From contig JAJRTY010000025.1 in the NCBI GenBank assembly GCA_024278055.1, positions 1-64,000 on the forward strand: a stretch of DNA of 64,000 nucleotides. The letters run 5' to 3'. Below, piece by piece: positions 9,017 through 18,691 of this stretch (position 1 is the first letter of the stretch; each line of letters begins with the position of its first letter). The position numbers were made by a program, and so were the translations under genes. This DNA is from Alphaproteobacteria bacterium (GTDB taxonomy: Bacteria > Pseudomonadota > Alphaproteobacteria > Rhizobiales > JAJFHR01). The notes beneath the pieces are model-generated. The model searched no databases and was not told the DNA's origin. It saw only the letters and a program-made list of their open reading frames with translations.

Positions 9017-9991
9017 TTAACCCTCGGCAATTTCAATGGCATCAGCCATGTGCGGTACAATTTCAGTAAATCTCGGCGCTACCTGTGTGCCGATCAGATG
9101 GCGGCAATCCTCGGCAAGGCGATCGGGCAAGTCACCGAGTTCAGCCCGCCGGGCAATGAGATAGATTGTGCGTGAAAATGCCGGAAATGGCACCTGGGCG
9201 ACATCAACCTGAGATATAAAACGCTCTGCATCCAGCAGGTTCAACGGCGTTGTCAAAGCCCAGCCCCTGGCCTGGCCAACCATTGCAATCACCGAACGTG
9301 AGGCTTCCAGGGCAAACCTGTGGGTCACATCAAAGCGCACGCGCTTCAGGTGCTGGGCGATGGTTTTACCCATGGGAATGGCCTCGGAATACTGAATAAA
9401 TGGCGCACCGGACAATTGTGCGCTTATGTCGCCATCATTCCTCAACAGCCCTTTGGCGGTTACAAGAATGAAGGGTTCACGCAAAATCGGTATGGTACGA
9501 AAATCGCTGATATTGTCCGGCACACTTGCTGATACGCAAATTTCGGCTTCGCGCTGCTGCAACATTTCTATCACATGATCAGAGCGGCCCGAATAGGCGT
9601 TGACGAAGCAATTGCGAAAACGGCGTTGCAAAATAGCCACCAGGGCCGGGGTCAATGAGGTATCAAGATCATCAATTATGGCCAGCGTCAGTTTTGGCAG
9701 ATTTACCAGATCGTGCTTGGCCAGTTCGGCGTGAGCCTTGGCGGTTGCATCAAGAATCCTATGGGCATGGGCATGCAGCAACTGCCCGGCCGGTGTCAAT
9801 TTCAGCGGTCGCGAGTTTCGATCGAAAAGCCTGGCTCCTACAGATTTCTCAAGGGATGTGATTTGCTGCGATACGCCCGATGAACTGCCGCCAATGCGGT
9901 TGGCGCCATCGCTGATCGAACCGGTTTCTTCGACAGCGACGAATGCGCGCAGACCGCGCAACGTCATCTCCGGATGGTTTTTACCTGCCAT
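9017..9991 (-). CDS. LysR-family transcriptional regulator
   Basis: A 324-residue LysR regulator. The N-terminal helix-turn-helix reads LRGLRAFVAVEETGSISDGA with VSQQITSLEKSVGARLFDR following, as in the family. The rest is a periplasmic-binding-protein-like effector domain (about 95-300) with FALEASRSVIAMVGQARGWAL. It is transcribed away from the ABC importer genes and towards the HisD/DegT genes, 108 bases upstream of them. This places it to control both units from the 232-base divergent region, where tandem operator-like repeats occur. The inducer is presumably the imported substrate or a product; that is inferred. Confidence 0.92.
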   Translation of the reverse strand: MAGKNHPEMTLRGLRAFVAVEETGSISDGANRIGGSSSGVSQQITSLEKSVGARLFDRNSRPLKLTPAGQLLHAHAHRILDATAKAHAELAKHDLVNLPKLTLAIIDDLDTSLTPALVAILQRRFRNCFVNAYSGRSDHVIEMLQQREAEICVSASVPDNISDFRTIPILREPFILVTAKGLLRNDGDISAQLSGAPFIQYSEAIPMGKTIAQHLKRVRFDVTHRFALEASRSVIAMVGQARGWALTTPLNLLDAERFISQVDVAQVPFPAFSRTIYLIARRAELGDLPDRLAEDCRHLIGTQVAPRFTEIVPHMADAIEIAEG

Positions 9992-10223: not shown

Positions 10224-11246
10224 ATGAAATCCATCAAAGCCAGTCTTTACGGGGCAAGTTTAATCGCACTGATCGCCACAAGCTCAATGGTAGCAACAGT
10301 CGCATCAACAACAACAGTTAAGGCCCAGGAACTAACGGTTGCCTATTTCCTTGAATGGCCAACACCAAACCAGTTTGCGCAGGTCAAGAAAATCTACGAC
10401 GAGAAACTTGGTGTCAAAATCAAGTGGGTTTCTTTTGACGCCGGCACGGCAATGTCTGCCGCCATGGCGGGCGGCGATGTTCAGATTTCATTTTCTCAAG
10501 GTATCCCACCGTTCGTGGTCGCCGCTTCCGCCGGCCAGGACCTGCAAGTCGTTGATGTTGCCGTATCTTATTCGAGCAATGACAATTGCGTCGTGCGCAC
10601 CAGCCTGGAAATCGACAAGACCAACGCCAAAGAACTGGAAGGCAAACAGGTTGGTGTGCCTCTGGGAACCGCTGCACATTATGGATTTTTGAAACAGATG
10701 GAGCATTTTGGCGTCAATACATCGACCATGAAAATTGTCGACATGGCTCCGCCTGACGGTGCCGCCGCTTTTGCATCGGGAAATCTCGATATGGTGTGTG
10801 GCTGGGGTGGATCGCTGCGCCGGATGAAAGAGTATGGCAATATTTTATTGACCGGTGCTGAAAAAGAAGAACTTGGCATTCAGGTTTTTGACGCCACAAC
10901 AGTTTCCACCCAGTGGGCGAAAGAGAATGCCGAGCTGCTGGCAAAATTCCTCAAAGTTACTGCCGACATGAATGCTAAATATGCAGCCGGTGGTGTTGAC
11001 GAAATGCTGCCGGTGATTGCCAAGGCAGCCGGTATGGATGAAAAAGCCACCAAGGAAACATTGGATGGATTTGTTTTCCCAACCATCAAAGAGCAACTCA
11101 GCGCCAAGTGGCTGGGCGGCGGCACGCAAAAGTTTCTTAAAGAAGTTGGCGATTTCTTTGTCAAACAGGGAACCATCCCCAAAGCTCGCGACAGTTATGA
11201 GAGTGCTGTCGATACCAGCTATCTTGAAGCTGCTTCAAAAATGTAA
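10224..11246 (+). CDS. ABC transporter substrate-binding protein, taurine/nitrate type (TauA-like)
   Basis: A periplasmic binding protein of 340 residues. The first 35 residues form a Sec signal peptide with likely cleavage after VKA before QELTVAYFLEW. The mature part follows the TauA/SsuA/NrtA pattern: DAGTAMSAAMAGGDVQISF, GKQVGVPLGTAAHYGFL and a GNLDMVCGWGG segment. It would deliver a small organic anion, such as a sulfonate, to the importer encoded next. The ATG follows an excellent GGGAGGAAG site. A terminator-like hairpin follows the stop, which would give more of this protein than of the membrane parts, as is common for binding proteins. Ligand unknown. Confidence 0.88.
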   Translation: MKSIKASLYGASLIALIATSSMVATVASTTTVKAQELTVAYFLEWPTPNQFAQVKKIYDEKLGVKIKWVSFDAGTAMSAAMAGGDVQISFSQGIPPFVVAASAGQDLQVVDVAVSYSSNDNCVVRTSLEIDKTNAKELEGKQVGVPLGTAAHYGFLKQMEHFGVNTSTMKIVDMAPPDGAAAFASGNLDMVCGWGGSLRRMKEYGNILLTGAEKEELGIQVFDATTVSTQWAKENAELLAKFLKVTADMNAKYAAGGVDEMLPVIAKAAGMDEKATKETLDGFVFPTIKEQLSAKWLGGGTQKFLKEVGDFFVKQGTIPKARDSYESAVDTSYLEAASKM

Positions 11247-11357: not shown

Positions 11358-12170
11358 TTGACACAATCCGCACAATCCAGTTTGCATATAGACCGGATTT
11401 CCATGACTTTCACCCTGCCCGGCGGCAACTCAATCGAAGCCTTGAAGGATGTTTCGCTTGAGTTGGCGGAAGGTGAATTAATGTCGGTCCTGGGGCCATC
11501 AGGGTGCGGCAAAACAACGCTTTTAAACATTGTTGCAGGCTTCCTTGCACCCACTGGAGGGCGGGTTGTGCTAAATGGTCACGAAGTTACAGGCCCCGGG
11601 CCGGAGCGTGGCATGGTGTTTCAGCAAGGCGCTTTATTCGAATGGATGTCGGTACGTAAAAATGTCGGCTTTGGCCCTGCCATGAAAGGCGTTGCGGCAG
11701 CGAAAATAAAACAGCGGGTGGATGAATTACTGGAAATTGTCGGCCTGCATGATTTTGGTGAAAAGGCTGTTTATGAACTTTCCGGCGGCATGCAGCAACG
11801 CGTGGCCCTGGCCCGGTGCCTGGCCAATGACCCCGACGTGATTTTGATGGATGAGCCGCTGGGCGCGCTTGATGCTTTGACGCGCGAAAAAATGCAGGGC
11901 CTGGTACTGAAACTGTGGAAAGAAACCGGTAAAACCATCATCCTGATTACCCATTCGGTGGAAGAGGCATTGCTACTTGGCGAGCGTCTTTTGGTCATGG
12001 CGCCGAGACCCGGGCGCATTCACAAGGAATACCGCCTGCCCTTTGCCGAAATGGGAGTGGCCACTGATTTGCGCGAGGTCAAGAAACGCAGTGATTATGG
12101 CGACAAGCGTGAGGAAATTCTTACGATGATCTGGGAGATGGAAGAAGAAATCATGGGCAGGAAGGAATAA
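11358..12170 (+). CDS. ABC transporter ATP-binding protein, taurine/nitrate type (TauB-like)
   Basis: The cytoplasmic ATPase of the importer, 270 residues. Walker A is GPSGCGKTT (46-54), the Q-loop is VFQQGALFEW, the signature is LSGGMQQR, Walker B is VILMDEPLGALD and the switch His is in ILITHSVEEA. These are all intact. The start is a TTG at 11358 placed seven bases after GGGAGGA; no ATG gives the conserved N terminus. It is four bases upstream of the permease GTG. With the binding protein and the interrupted permease it makes a TauABC-type importer. Confidence 0.9.
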   Translation: MTQSAQSSLHIDRISMTFTLPGGNSIEALKDVSLELAEGELMSVLGPSGCGKTTLLNIVAGFLAPTGGRVVLNGHEVTGPGPERGMVFQQGALFEWMSVRKNVGFGPAMKGVAAAKIKQRVDELLEIVGLHDFGEKAVYELSGGMQQRVALARCLANDPDVILMDEPLGALDALTREKMQGLVLKLWKETGKTIILITHSVEEALLLGERLLVMAPRPGRIHKEYRLPFAEMGVATDLREVKKRSDYGDKREEILTMIWEMEEEIMGRKE

Positions 12171-12174
12171 GGCT

Positions 12175-13446
12175 GTGTTGATCCTGGCAATCTACGTCAC
12201 AATTTTCATTGTCGCCTATGTGCTCTATGGGCTGGTTGCCGGACGCATGGTTTCGCGTGAAGGCTTTACGGCCCGCAAAACCGTTACTTTCGGTGATGAA
12301 AGTGCGGTTACCCCCAACCGGGCCGCATCAGTGATATCAATCATTTCAATCTTTTTGATCTGGGGGGCTTTTACCGGATCTAATTTAGTACCTGTGCATG
12401 TGCCCGGCCCGTTTGTTGGTGATACATCATTCACCTATACGGCAACCAATCCGCAAAACCAGAGTGATGACGCAACAGTTTATATCCGTGTCAGGCCAGT
12501 GGGAGAGAAGACCGAAAAACCTAAAATTTCCGACAAGCCCCAAGCAGGGTTTGCCAAAGATGATGCCATGAAGGTGGGGGCGTGGCGCAGCGGTCTTATT
12601 CGCGTCCAGAACAATGATGAGGGCGGCAAAGAAAAAGGCTATCGCGTAACCGCTATCAATGGCCAGCCAATAGCGCCAAAGCAATCTGTTGAGGTGGCCG
12701 ATGGCGTCGTCAATATGACGGCCAAGGGCAGTCTGTCTTTTGTTCCCGACAAAGGCTGGCAAATGGAGCCGATCTGGCTGCCGTCCCCGGAAGCTGTGGT
12801 TTCGCGCTTCATTGAAGTTTCCCGCGACGGCTATCAGAATGTAACGCTTCTGGAAAACGTCGGCTGGTCATTGTTCCGGGTAATCGTCGGCTTCATTCTT
12901 GGCTCTCTGGTCGGCATCCCCCTTGGCTATGCCATGGGCCTGAATAACTGGTTTCGCGGCTGGTTTGATCCCATTGTCGAGTTCATGCGGCCAATCCCGC
13001 CGCTGGCTCTTATTCCTTTGATAATTATCTGGTTTGGCATCTGGGAGCAGGGCAAAATCAGCCTGCTGTTTCTGGCCGCCTTATGGATCATGACGATTTC
13101 TGCACGCGCCGGTGTGTCAGGCGTCAATATTGCCAAGGTCCATGCTGCCTATTCACTGGGGGCCTCAAAGTTTCAGATACTTACCCATGTTATCATTCCA
13201 AACTCATTGCCGTAAATCTTCACCGGAGCAAGGGTGGCGATGGGTGTGTGCTGGGGTACGGTTGTTGCGGCTGAACTGGTTGCAGCAGAAAAAGGTGCCG
13301 GTAAAATGATTATCGCAGCATCCAAGTTTCAACAGACCGATATTGTTATCATGGGAATAATTCTAATCGGCATTATTGGATACGGCATCGATATTTTGAT
13401 GCGTATGGCCGAAAAAACCCTGGTACCCTGGAAGGGTAAAAGCTAG
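12175..13446 (+). pseudogene. ABC importer permease (TauC-like) with cadherin-like insertion, interrupted by in-frame TAA
   Basis: The frame runs from GTG 12175 to a TAA at 13213-13215 (346 codons) and goes on in the same frame to 13446, giving 423 codons if read through. After two N-terminal membrane helices comes a stretch of about 120 residues (roughly 80-200) with DTSFTYTATNPQNQSDDATV and later GSLSFVPDKGW, which look like bacterial cadherin/Ig-type beta domains. The transport core follows, with the EAA-type loop AAYSLGASKFQILTHVIIP. The stop falls at NSLP-stop-IFTGARVAMG, where relatives have Glu or a similar residue, so a single change such as GAA to TAA would explain it. Without readthrough the last two helices are lost and the importer should fail. 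Confidence 0.8.
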
Positions 13447-13607: not shown

Positions 13608-13721
13608 TGAGTCGCTGTTCGCAAGTGCAATATAGATACTTTATTTTTTTAACCTGTGGTATGATTCGACATCTGATTGTATCGCACGGTTGATCTATTT
13701 TATAACGAGGGGCCAGGAAAA

Positions 13722-15344
13722 ATGGGGCTTACCGCTTATTTCACCTCTTTCGGTGTGGTGGCACTTGCTGCACTGGTATTGGTAGCCAAGGCTGAAGATG
13801 CCTTATTTGCTTTCCACGCATGGCTGGTCGTTGCCGCTTGTGCGATAGCCGTTATTTACCGATTGCGGAAGCTGGATTTTGTTCCCGGCAAAACGGTAGT
13901 GCCCGAAAGATATTTTGACAGCGTGGTAAGAGCCGGTGTCATCGCTACAGTTTTCTGGGGACTTGCCGGATTTCTTGTGGGCGTGGTGATAGCTCTGCAA
14001 TTGTCGTTTCCAGAATTGAACTTCGACACCTCGTTTACCAACTTTGGCCGTCTGCGTCCCTTACATACCTCGGCTGTGGTTTTTGCCTTTGGCGGCAATG
14101 CCCTGATTTGCACAAGTTTTTATACGGTCCAGCGCACCTGCTCGGCCCGGCTGGCATTTGGCAATCTCGCCTGGTTCGTGTTCTGGGGCTATCAGATGTT
14201 TATTGTGCTGGCCGCCACTGGTTATTTATTCGGAGCCACGCAATCGCGTGAGTATGCCGAGCCAGAGTGGTATGTGGATATCTGGCTGACGATCGTCTGG
14301 GTTGCCTATCTGCTGGTTTTTCTGGGAACACTGTGGAAGCGTAAAGAGCCGCATATCTACGTTGGAAACTGGTTCTATCTGGCGTTCATTATCACCATCG
14401 CCATGTTGCATATTGTCAACAACCTGGCAGTGCCGGTCTCGTTCTTTGGTGTGAAAAGCTATTCCCTGTTCTCTGGCGTGCAGGATGCCCTGACCCAATG
14501 GTGGTATGGCCACAATGCAGTTGGGTTCTTATTGACTGCCGGATTTCTCGGTATGATGTATTATTTTGTTCCCAAGCAGGCACAACGTCCGGTCTATTCA
14601 TACCGGTTGTCGATCATTCATTTCTGGGCGCTGATTTTCCTGTATATCTGGGCCGGTCCTCATCACCTGTTGTATACAGCCCTGCCGGACTGGGCGCAGA
14701 CACTCGGCATGGCATTTTCCGTTATGTTGTGGATGCCAAGCTGGGCAGGCATGATCAATGGTCTGATGACACTCTCCGGGGCCTGGGACAAGCTGCGCAC
14801 AGATCCTATCATCCGCTTCATGGTGCTGGCGCTGGCGTTTTACGGCATGGCAACTTTTGAAGGCCCGTTATTGTCTATCAAGGCGGTTAATTCCCTCAGC
14901 CATTATACCGACTGGACCGTTGGCCATGTGCATGCGGGAGCGTTGGGCTGGAATGGCATGTTAACCTTTGCTGCCCTTTACTACATGGTGCCAAGACTAT
15001 GGGGCCGCTCGGGCCTGTACAGCCTGCGCCTGGTCAATTGGCACTTTTGGCTGGCAACCCTGGGAATTGTGCTCTACGCCTCCTCCATGTGGGTTTCCGG
15101 CATCCAGCAGGGGCTGATGTGGCGGACATTTAACGAGCTTGGTTTCCTCGAATATTCCTTCGCCGAAACCGTTGCCGCTATGCATCCTTACTATGTCATA
15201 CGCGCTCTGGGAGGAGTGTTCTATCTCCTTGGTTCTTTCATTATGGCGTATAATCTGTGGCGTACGGTGACCAGCCCGACCACATCCAAATCACACGATG
15301 CCGTGCCTGCCGGTGCTACGGCAACATTGAGCGGGGGGGCTTGA
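13722..15344 (+). CDS. ccoN: Cytochrome cbb3 oxidase subunit I
   Basis: The catalytic membrane subunit, which reduces O2 to water at a haem b3-CuB centre and pumps protons. It is 540 residues with about twelve membrane helices. Haem and copper ligands are visible as His in [30 protein letters not shown] and [20 protein letters not shown] start at the ATG at 13722 after GGGGCCAGGA; a TTG at 13677 is in frame without homology. First gene of ccoNOQPGHIS, downstream of the FNR box. A complete and apparently functional gene. Confidence 0.96.
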
Positions 15345-15347
15345 ACC

Positions 15348-16073
15348 ATGTTTAGCCACAAAATCATTGAAACACGCTCAATGCTGCTGCTGATACTATC
15401 GCTGGTGGTCATCTCGATCGGCGGTATTGTTGAACTTGTTCCTCTGTTCTTCCTGCAAAATACCATAGAAAAGGTCGAGGGCATGAGGCCCTATACGCCG
15501 CTGGAACTGGCCGGTCGCAATATCTATATTCGTGAAGGCTGTTATTCCTGTCACAGTCAGATGATCCGACCCTTCCGCGATGAGGTTGCCCGTTATGGTC
15601 CCTACAGCCTGGCGGCTGAAAGCATGTATGACCATCCCTTTCAGTGGGGGTCAAAGCGCACAGGACCGGATCTGGCTCGTGTTGGCGCGCGGTATTCCGA
15701 TGAATGGCAGGTCAAGCACCTGAAAGATCCGCGCTCCCTGGTGCCGGAATCAGTAATGCCCGGCTATCCTTTTTTGGCCAACAACACACTGCGCACCGAT
15801 AATGCGGCAGCGCACCTGAAAACCAATGTCATTGTTGGCGTACCCTATACTGATGAGATGATAAAGTTCGCTGAAGCCGACATGCGCGCCCAGGCTAATC
15901 CCGATTCTGATGATGTTGAGGGTCTGGAAAAACGTTATGCTAAAATATCCGTACGCGATTTTGACGGCAACCCCAACAAACTGACCGAAATGGATGCCCT
16001 GGTAGCTTATTTGCAGATGCTGGGGACACTGGTTGATTTCGAAAAATACGAACCTGAAAAGAACCTGAGGTAG
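15348..16073 (+). CDS. ccoO: Cytochrome cbb3 oxidase subunit II (monohaem cytochrome c)
   Basis: Membrane-anchored c-type cytochrome of 241 residues that passes electrons to CcoN. An N-terminal helix (about 11-35) anchors it, and the haem c site CYSCH is followed by [10 protein letters not shown]. The ligand Met is likely in SVMPGYPFL. It begins three bases after ccoN. The length and the ending in [11 protein letters not shown] are normal for CcoO. Confidence 0.96.
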
Positions 16074-16078
16074 AGCTG

Positions 16079-16237
16079 ATGGAATATGAAGTATTGCGCA
16101 AGTTTGCTGACACCTGGGGTCTGCTTTTTCTGGTGTCTGTTTTTCTCTTTGTAATCGCCTGGGTTTTTCGACCGGGCAGCAAAAAGCTCTATGAAGATCA
16201 GTCCAATATACTTTTTCGCAACGAAAAGAAGGACTGA
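16079..16237 (+). CDS. ccoQ: Cytochrome cbb3 oxidase small subunit CcoQ
   Basis: A 52-residue protein starting MEYEVLRKFADTWGLLFLVS, with one membrane helix (about 14-30) and then RPGSKKLYED. This matches CcoQ, which stabilises the CcoNO-CcoP complex. It starts five bases after ccoO and ends just before ccoP. Confidence 0.9.
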   Translation: MEYEVLRKFADTWGLLFLVSVFLFVIAWVFRPGSKKLYEDQSNILFRNEKKD

Positions 16238-16241
16238 ATTC

Positions 16242-17114
16242 ATGAGCAAGATTGAAGTTGATGAATTTTCCGGCACCAAGACAACCGGGCACAATTGGGG
16301 CGGTATCAAGGAGCTGGACACGCCAATGCCGCGGTGGTGGCTGATATGTTTCTGGATCGGCGTTATCTGGGCAATTGTCTATATGGCGATTTATCTTTTC
16401 TACCCAATGATCACAGGGTCAACCAAGGGGTATTTTGGTTATTCTTCTTCACGTGCGGAATTCGCCCAGACCATGGTGGAAGTCGGAAAATCTCAGGAAA
16501 AGTTTCTGGTAAAGATAAAAAATCTGTCTCTGGAAGATATTCGCAACGATAAGGAATTATCCGAATTCGCCTATGCCGGTGGCAAATCAGCCTTTGCCAT
16601 CAATTGCTCCCAGTGTCATGGCTCGGGGGCCGCAGGTGCGCCCGGTTATCCAAACCTCAATGATGACAACTGGCTGTGGGGTGGCAGTCTGGAAGAAATC
16701 TCCACCATAATTACTCATGGCATACGCTTTGATCAGGATGAGAACACACGGATTTCTGAAATGCCCGGGTTTGGCCGCGACGAAATTCTTGATCGCAAAC
16801 AGATTGACCAGGTGGCGGATTATGTTTTGTCCCTGTCCAATCGCGAACACAATGCCGAAAACGCCAAGTTGGGACTTGCCGTTTACGAGGAAAATTGCGC
16901 AGCCTGTCACGGGGCCAAAGGCGAAGGTGATCGTGAGCAAGGGGCGCCACAATTAAACAATGTTCTGTGGCTCTACGGCAATAAGAAGTCCGATATCATC
17001 AGGCAGGTCACCTCACCGCGACATGGTGTTATGCCTGCATGGGGCGGACGACTTGATGGAACAACCATCAAGCAATTGACAATCTATGTGCATGCTTTGG
17101 GTGGCGGCGAATAG
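16242..17114 (+). CDS. ccoP: Cytochrome cbb3 oxidase subunit III (dihaem cytochrome c)
   Basis: Dihaem cytochrome c of 290 residues that receives electrons from soluble cytochromes. The N-terminal part has HNWGGIKELDTPMPRWW and a membrane helix, as in all CcoP. The two haem c sites are CSQCH (in NCSQCHGSGAAGAPGYP) and CAACH (in NCAACHGAKGEGD), each with a later Met. I start at the ATG at 16242 (MSKIEVDEFSG); the frame is open to 16191 but overlaps ccoQ. The spacing to ccoQ is four bases. Confidence 0.95.
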   Translation: MSKIEVDEFSGTKTTGHNWGGIKELDTPMPRWWLICFWIGVIWAIVYMAIYLFYPMITGSTKGYFGYSSSRAEFAQTMVEVGKSQEKFLVKIKNLSLEDIRNDKELSEFAYAGGKSAFAINCSQCHGSGAAGAPGYPNLNDDNWLWGGSLEEISTIITHGIRFDQDENTRISEMPGFGRDEILDRKQIDQVADYVLSLSNREHNAENAKLGLAVYEENCAACHGAKGEGDREQGAPQLNNVLWLYGNKKSDIIRQVTSPRHGVMPAWGGRLDGTTIKQLTIYVHALGGGE

Positions 17115-17197
17115 ATCCGGCGCTCCAGTACTGATGATAACAGCGCGTCCGTGAAAGAGTGATTTTGCCGACACCGCGCAATCCTGGGTAAAGCTGA

Positions 17198-18691
17198 ATG
17201 GTTGAGGTATTGAATACAATCGACAAGCAGATTGATCGCGTCGAAGTGGAGGCAGTAAACTCCAAGGGCAATCGTGCGCTTTTTGCCAAACGCAAGAAAA
17301 TATTTCCCAAGCGCGCCAGCGGCACCTTTCGACAGTTCAAATGGGCGGTGATGGTTTTCACCCTGGCAATATATTACTTCACGCCATGGATACGCTGGGA
17401 TCGGGGTGAATTTACACCTAATCAGGCGGTGCTGGTTGATCTTGATCAGGGCCGTTTCTATTTCTTTTTCATCACCATCTGGCCACAGGAGCTGTATTAC
17501 ATCGCCGGGCTGTTGATCATGGCCGGTGTCGGCCTGTTCCTTGTCACCTCAACCGTGGGCCGTGCCTGGTGTGGCTATACCTGCCCGCAAACGGTGTGGG
17601 TGGACCTGTTTTTGGTTATTTAACGCTGGATTGAAGGCGATCGAAATGCACGGATCAAGCTGGACAATGCCGGCTGGTCTGCCCCTAAAGTCTTCAAGCG
17701 GCTCTCCAAGCATGTTTTGTGGCTGGTGATTGCTATGATGACCGGCGGGGCCTGGGTATTCTATTTTGCCGATGCCCCTACTTTGCTGAAAAATCTGCTG
17801 ACGGGCAATGCCTCTTCCATTGCTTATTCAACCATTTTTGTTATGACTTCGATCACTTATCTGTTTGCCGGTTTCATGCGCGAACAGGTGTGTACTTTCA
17901 TGTGCCCGTGGCCGCGCATTCAAGGCGCGATGCTGGATGAACGCTCACTGGTTGTCACCTACAATGACTGGCGCGGAGAGCCACGTTCGCGTCATCAGAA
18001 AAAATCTGAAGTGAATGCGCAAAGCGGTGATTGTATTGACTGTAATCAATGCGTGGTTGTCTGCCCCATGGGTATAGATATTCGCGATGGTCAGCAGTTG
18101 GAATGCATTACGTGCGCGCTATGTATTGACGCCTGCAACGGGGTTATGGACAAGATCGGTCGCCCGCAAAATCTAATCTCATATTCAACTCTCAATGATT
18201 ATGAAGCAAATGTGAAAGGTGAGCGCACAAAAACCACCTGGCGTTCGTTTATTCACGGGCGCACAGTGATTTACTCTGCCATAATGGCAATCGCAGCGCT
18301 GTCTTTGCTCTATGTACTGGTCATGCGAAATCAGGTTGAGGTGAATGTTCTGCATAATCGCAATCCGATTTTTATACTGTTGTCCGATGGGTCCATACGC
18401 AATGGATACACGGTCAAAATACTGAACAAGAAGCTCCAGCCACAGGAATTTGTCATAAGTGTTGAAGGAATTCCGGGATTGGAAATGCAGGTTGCCGGAG
18501 CGGAGACGGATGCCCAAAAACAGGTGGTTCTCGAAGTGCCGGCAAACGACCTTGAATCTGTCCGCCTTTTCTTGCGCGCCACTCCATCGAACCTGAAGGG
18601 TGAACAAACCCCGTTCAATTTCATTGTCCGCAACAAAAACGATACAGAAAAGATTACCCATGAGGCAGTTTTTTACCAACCCAAAAATTAG
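17198..18691 (+). pseudogene. ccoG: cbb3 oxidase accessory ferredoxin-type protein CcoG, interrupted by in-frame TAA
   Basis: CcoG is a membrane iron-sulfur protein that reduces copper for cbb3 assembly. The frame opens at ATG 17198 and has AWCGYTCPQTVWVDLFLVI, then a TAA at 17621-17623 (codon 142), then RWIEGDRNARIKLDNAGW in the same frame through to 18691. Relatives have Glu at the stop position, so GAA to TAA is the simplest change. Downstream, CTFMCPWPRIQ and two 4Fe-4S motifs (CIDCNQCVVVCP and CITCALCIDACN) are intact, as are the later membrane helix and the C-terminal Ig-like domain. The rest of the sequence shows no other damage. Confidence 0.88.

Follow-up and report, generated by a model that had tools for sequence, protein, structure and literature searches.

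How a taurine-type ABC permease comes to carry a segment of the kind found in bacterial adhesins, and what that segment does there, are questions raised by one gene in the window, as the whole 64,000-nucleotide stretch of alphaproteobacterial DNA analysed here is called. A preliminary description, made from the letters alone, read the gene as two N-terminal helices, an insert with two strings typical of cadherin/Ig-like repeats, and the usual transport core. Both strings are present in the 346-aa frame (FTYTATNPQNQSDDATVYI at about residues 86-104 and GSLSFVPDKGW at about 185-195), and the AF2 model indeed has two helices ahead of the insert, with the permease core (BPD_transp_1) after it. The kind of transporter is already known; the permuted, apparently captured domain that it contains is a new variant.

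The permease and its operon

The Pfam domain BPD_transp_1 (residues 247-346, E 3.7e-15) marks the permease as having the core of the NitT/TauT type. PRK10160 (TauC, NCBIfam) is the top model for the window frame (134.8 bits) and for a full-length Kiloniella relative, L034 (210.3 bits), and neither reaches the TauC equivalog cut-off of 342 bits. Core sequence, tauABC operon and taurine catabolism neighbours are shared with TauC proper (PRK10160; R. pomeroyi tauABC, SPO0674-0676), but the E. coli-type TauC model, with 275 positions, has no space for an insert of ~117 aa or for the extra helix TM0, and full-length insert-bearing relatives are ~422 aa long and score under the equivalog cut-off. 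The core is also homologous to NrtB and CmpB, the nearest permease cores with solved structures (8w9m, 9u9z); the match is limited to the core, and these ~280-aa chains likewise lack space for an insert.

Table 1. Features of the permease gene and its operon (positions in the window; residue numbers refer to the 346-aa frame)
Feature	Position	Strand	Remarks
Divergent LysR regulator, upstream	9017..9991	-	
tauA-type taurine-binding protein	10224..11246	+	TIGR01729, 174.4 bits (cut-off 304)
tauB-type ATPase, same operon	11358..12170	+	NCBIfam taurine ATP-binding subunit, 271.6 bits (cut-off 357)
TauC-type ABC permease ORF	12175..13215	+	GTG start, 346 aa, in-frame TAA end
Extra N-terminal transmembrane helix TM0	12178..12258	+	residues 2-28, AF2
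KTVTFGDES motif, between TM0 and TM1	12277..12303	+	predicted cytoplasmic
First core transmembrane helix TM1	12319..12375	+	residues 49-67, AF2
Insert part 1, beta-hairpin (Big_9 C-terminal strands F-G)	12406..12495	+	residues 78-107, GPFVGDTSFTYTATNPQNQSDDATVYIRVRP
Insert linker, canonical C-terminus to canonical N-terminus	12496..12546	+	residues 108-124
Insert part 2 (Big_9 strands A-E)	12547..12762	+	residues 125-196, GFAKDD...NND...GSLSFVPDKGWQ
Permease core: WLPSPEAV helix (periplasmic) and transmembrane core as far as the premature stop	12787..13212	+	
In-frame stop and still-open remainder of the frame	13213..13446	+	to TAG 13444-13446

Among 80 related loci, tauB is found in all and tauA in 76. 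In 34 loci a class III aminotransferase lies upstream, the type of enzyme that taurine-pyruvate aminotransferase (tpa) would be, and in R. pomeroyi tpa adjoins tauABC (PMC4334477). True xsc (sulfoacetaldehyde acetyltransferase) occurs at a few loci, and the window's own genome has it elsewhere. Judged from the gene sequences, the window operon would encode a type I ABC importer of the taurine class (TauABC, NitT/TauT), the neighbours pointing to taurine as its substrate. R. pomeroyi mutants in tauA (SPO0674) and tauC (SPO0676) show a growth deficit of ~92% on taurine (PMC10130141); the insert is present in two other Ruegeria species, and it is on these, not on the SPO0676 sequence, that the Ruegeria evidence rests. 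The position of the LysR gene is kept in Kiloniella L034 (809-1771, 72%) and in a Rhodobacterales MAG, L038 (795-1766, 62%), and LysR may be an alternative regulator of this operon; a MocR-type regulator is seen at other loci (n=13). The permease is followed by cbb3 oxidase-like genes (ccoN, ccoO, ccoP) and a ccoG-like gene (13677-17623, + strand), ordinary by translation.

The window frame ends early, with TAA at 13213-13215 as codon 347, ~76 codons short of its relatives. This in-frame stop is what would make the gene a pseudogene, its insert without current function in the window genome, but the frame beyond the stop is as conserved as the rest: against L003, from the same genus, the 76 codons comprise 53 identical, 22 synonymous and 1 nonsynonymous. 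Because of this conservation, the stop is probably very recent or an error in the MAG sequence, and loss of function in the window genome is somewhat unlikely. Intact copies of the permease exist, including in the same genus, and the state of the window copy has no bearing on the family.

Comparison of N-termini shows TM0 to be absent from the insert-bearing protein L010 and from the insert-free sisters L011 and L012; as L010 has the insert without TM0, the extra helix is separable from it. L010 (genome G040), whose insert retains the Big_9 pattern 'VLANDRD..LTITSV', is useful for putting the evolutionary steps in order. In the KTVTFGDES motif, K35, T36 and T38-E42 are invariant across 45 sequences, and KTVxFGDES occurs in L011 and L012 as well.

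Domain family and fold of the insert

The insert as a whole (residues ~78-196, window 12406-12762) lies between TM1 and a conserved 'WLPxPE' segment, flanked in the AF2 model by helices 49-67 and 205-218, and is predicted to be on the periplasmic side. A profile search of this region was among the checks suggested in the preliminary description. Scanned alone against Pfam, the window insert matches Big_9 (PF17963) with 24.4 bits, above the gathering score of 23.6, and 76 of 79 homologous inserts match this family at E <= 0.01. The matches to Big_9 and Cadherin_5 bear out the Ig/cadherin-like kinship that had been proposed, and identification of the insert as a Big_9 (bacterial Ig/cadherin-like) domain is virtually certain. 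Chance resemblance to Big_9 was considered and is ruled out by the 76 matches together with the rotation scan given below.

The insert would fold as an Ig-like beta-sandwich, the fold on which the preliminary description had staked its reading, and structure prediction does not refute that reading. In the AF2 model of the whole frame, residues 81-190 are all beta (pLDDT about 80-92); modelled alone from a 79-sequence alignment, the insert is all beta with eight strands (pLDDT 90.7, pTM 0.82). A Foldseek search of PDB with the insert model gives no match (best E 0.27, sequential alignment), and the full model likewise finds none to the insert, a result expected from a permuted fold and a sequential aligner. 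A profile of the natural-order insert alignment finds nothing significant among PDB sequences. Given the lack of a PDB match with Foldseek, the identity of the fold rests on the profiles and AF2.

Circular permutation

The insert does not follow the canonical A-G strand order of Big_9. In natural order, its first 25-26 residues align to positions 64-89 of the model and later residues to its start, so that the halves are reversed. Part 1 covers Big_9 63/64-88 of 89 and contains AF2 strands 82-91 and 97-107; for part 2, with AF2 strands within residues 130-191, relatives align to Big_9 2-55 (L010) and 17-63 (L084). When the halves are rejoined in canonical order, the Big_9 score rises in all five proteins examined, from 22-26 to 33-39 bits: from 22.2 to 32.8 for the window insert, 24.7 to 33.6 for L010, 25.7 to 38.9 for L009, 23.4 to 34.4 for L067 and 22.6 to 34.6 for L084. 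Two of the five rejoined inserts span the whole or nearly the whole model (1-89, in L009, and 2-88 of 89). A ten-step rotation scan of the L009 insert peaks at 38.7 bits with the cut in the linker, which differs among the aligned proteins in both length and sequence, and falls to minima of 25-26 bits at the natural order and adjacent rotations. A search with the de-permuted L009 insert picks up a solved RTX protein (36gk, E 9e-4), whereas the natural order retrieves no solved protein at E <= 0.01.

At the level of sequence, these comparisons show the insert to be a circularly permuted Big_9 domain, with the last two strands first, then a linker, then strands A-E. The plain Ig/cadherin repeat of the preliminary description thus stands as to family and fails as to strand order, the permutation having been missed. 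The breakpoint would lie in the turn 'P-x-x-G-W/F - x-G-x-x-S-F' between strands E and F, with both new ends leaving at one place. As the Big_9 order is permuted, domain databases see only half of the insert per match. Literature searches in which subscription papers were thinly covered found neither an Ig/Big_9 insert in TauC nor a permuted Big_9 domain.

Distribution and probable single gain

In a species-level genome scan, the best 80 loci, from Alpha- and Gammaproteobacteria, all carry the insert (63-80% identical where matched). The insert occurs in 9 of 101 genomes around the window's order, in 5 of 385 drawn evenly from the class and in 13 of 398 drawn from the phylum. In family f74, probably Rhodobacteraceae or a close equivalent, it is present in 46 of 101 genomes, and these are exactly the 46 whose core shares 71-85% identity with that of Kiloniella; all other core matches are at or below 50%, and no insert-free orthologue appears above 50% core identity. 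Since no insert-free orthologues are seen, the insert appears to be obligatory in the lineage. That it might be a quirk of the window genome is ruled out by its conservation in genomes far apart phylogenetically and by its presence in f74. The statement that taurine permeases normally lack such an insert therefore holds for E. coli-type TauC, but not in one large TauC clade, where the insert is the rule.

In a core-only tree, built without rows L025-L027 and L029-L031 (mis-extracted or very long), one branch parts insert-bearing from insert-free proteins (support 97/85), and 97% of the bootstrap trees require one insert change, a pattern that fits a single gain. In L011 and L012, the closest relatives without the insert, the loop has its normal short length. 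Against the orthologue from the same genus, the 117 codons of the insert comprise 83 identical, 27 synonymous and 7 nonsynonymous, a codon pattern indicating that the insert is under purifying selection.

Likely origin from an adhesin repeat

The natural-order profile of the insert matches successive ~103-aa adhesin repeats across the repeat boundary, in the same order of parts (for example, five repeats in a 7,695-aa frame, E 1e-9 to 1e-13). The matched tandem arrays sit in giant adhesins without transmembrane segments; the other strong matches are permeases of the same TauC family. An all-strand sequence pattern and an all-beta prediction are common to the insert and to Big_9 (PF17963), Cadherin_5 and CshA repeats, but the insert is permuted and occurs as one copy in an inner-membrane permease, whereas the Big_9 adhesins are secreted and carry a tandem array. 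Going by these alignments, the insert looks like a single repeat taken out of register from an adhesin array.

A TauC ancestor would have gained a single permuted Big_9 domain in the loop that follows the first core helix on the periplasmic side, most simply from a tandem adhesin array, with strands F-G coming from one repeat and A-E from the next. Capture out of register would explain the permutation without a separate event. With its order permuted, the domain would begin and end at the same loop (the 'P-x-x-G-W | x-G-x-x-S-F' turn), and this could let the domain sit between two membrane segments. In a different NitT/TauT-type permease, the same loop, before 'WLPKP', holds a long (~270 aa), unrelated and apparently helical insert (L025 frame 1, 652 aa; L026; G863, G906 and G917; frames of 644-652 aa). 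Periplasmic arms may be especially prone to arise in this loop.

Function

Three binding partners had been suggested for the insert: the substrate-binding protein, the cell wall and calcium. Docking of the binding protein is probably the best of these, and binding of calcium or of the cell wall finds no support here. In MalF, the P2 domain comes after the first core helix, a position that the insert would share. As the insert is predicted to be, P2 is a separately folding periplasmic domain of a type I importer permease, and it binds the maltose-binding protein MalE (papers cited in PMC3150292 and PMC8134467). No sequence relation between the two domains is apparent, and only one P2 is present in the MalFG heterodimer, whereas TauC is expected to form a homodimer with two inserts. 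Given this parallel, and since the insert is expected on the periplasmic side, the side on which the binding protein docks, docking of TauA is the best explanation: the insert would be an arm by which TauA is held or positioned on the TauC dimer. On these analogies no other function is as likely as a periplasmic dock, with the case for it about evenly balanced. For the explanation as a whole, a permuted Big_9 domain captured in a TauC loop and given a docking role, the balance is moderately favourable.

Mirror-tree comparison yields similar partial correlations of the insert with TauA (0.25), TauB (0.26) and the core (0.32), and TauA is not singled out. Such even co-variation with all subunits is also what a structural spacer, or a folding or stability element with no partner, might show, and the insert varies more between proteins than the core does (mean pairwise distance 0.45 vs 0.16). 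Invariant R65, Q123 and H2, however, are unlike the Big_9 pattern, selection on the insert is purifying and no losses were found, which speaks for a specific contact and makes a mere spacer unlikely. Less probable still is that the permuted Big_9 domain anchors the importer in the envelope, by contact with peptidoglycan or with a partner in the outer membrane, or gathers transporters into clusters. Big_9 is an adhesive building block, and the domain is predicted to be periplasmic and is fixed in the clade, but it stands alone with no partner repeat, matches no known wall-binding family in Pfam and is strictly tied to tauA-tauB operons.

Single-gene NitT/TauT permeases work as homodimers, and the two pieces of the insert belong to neighbouring domains in the adhesin array; both points would suit a domain swap, F-G of one TauC subunit pairing with A-E of the other. 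AF2, however, folds the monomeric insert confidently (pTM 0.82), and a swap is very unlikely. Calcium binding, whether for stiffening or for gating uptake by the calcium level of sea water, is the most improbable reading, since although Ca2+ sites between domains are common in cadherin-like RTX-adhesin repeats and 'DD' and 'ND' positions are conserved here (N74 and D75 are invariant in A2), these positions are part of the ordinary Big_9 pattern, inter-domain sites require a neighbouring repeat that is missing, and the conserved R65, W64 and H2 are not Ca2+ ligands.

Implications

With TauA docking as the preferred function, the fullest account remains tentative and falls somewhat short of even confidence: an adhesin repeat captured out of register would by accident have been permuted in a way that fits a membrane-protein loop, and would now be an essential docking arm in a large marine clade. 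Permuted domains of this kind are only half visible, so that similar captures elsewhere may be overlooked. The insert-free sisters L011 and L012, together with L010, which lacks TM0, offer a clean case for the origin and docking role of arms in ABC importers. The family illustrates how a domain from a tandem repeat can come to sit in a membrane-protein loop, its ends united by permutation. Taurine is a source of carbon, nitrogen and sulfur for marine bacteria, and the insert-bearing importer class is widespread among them.
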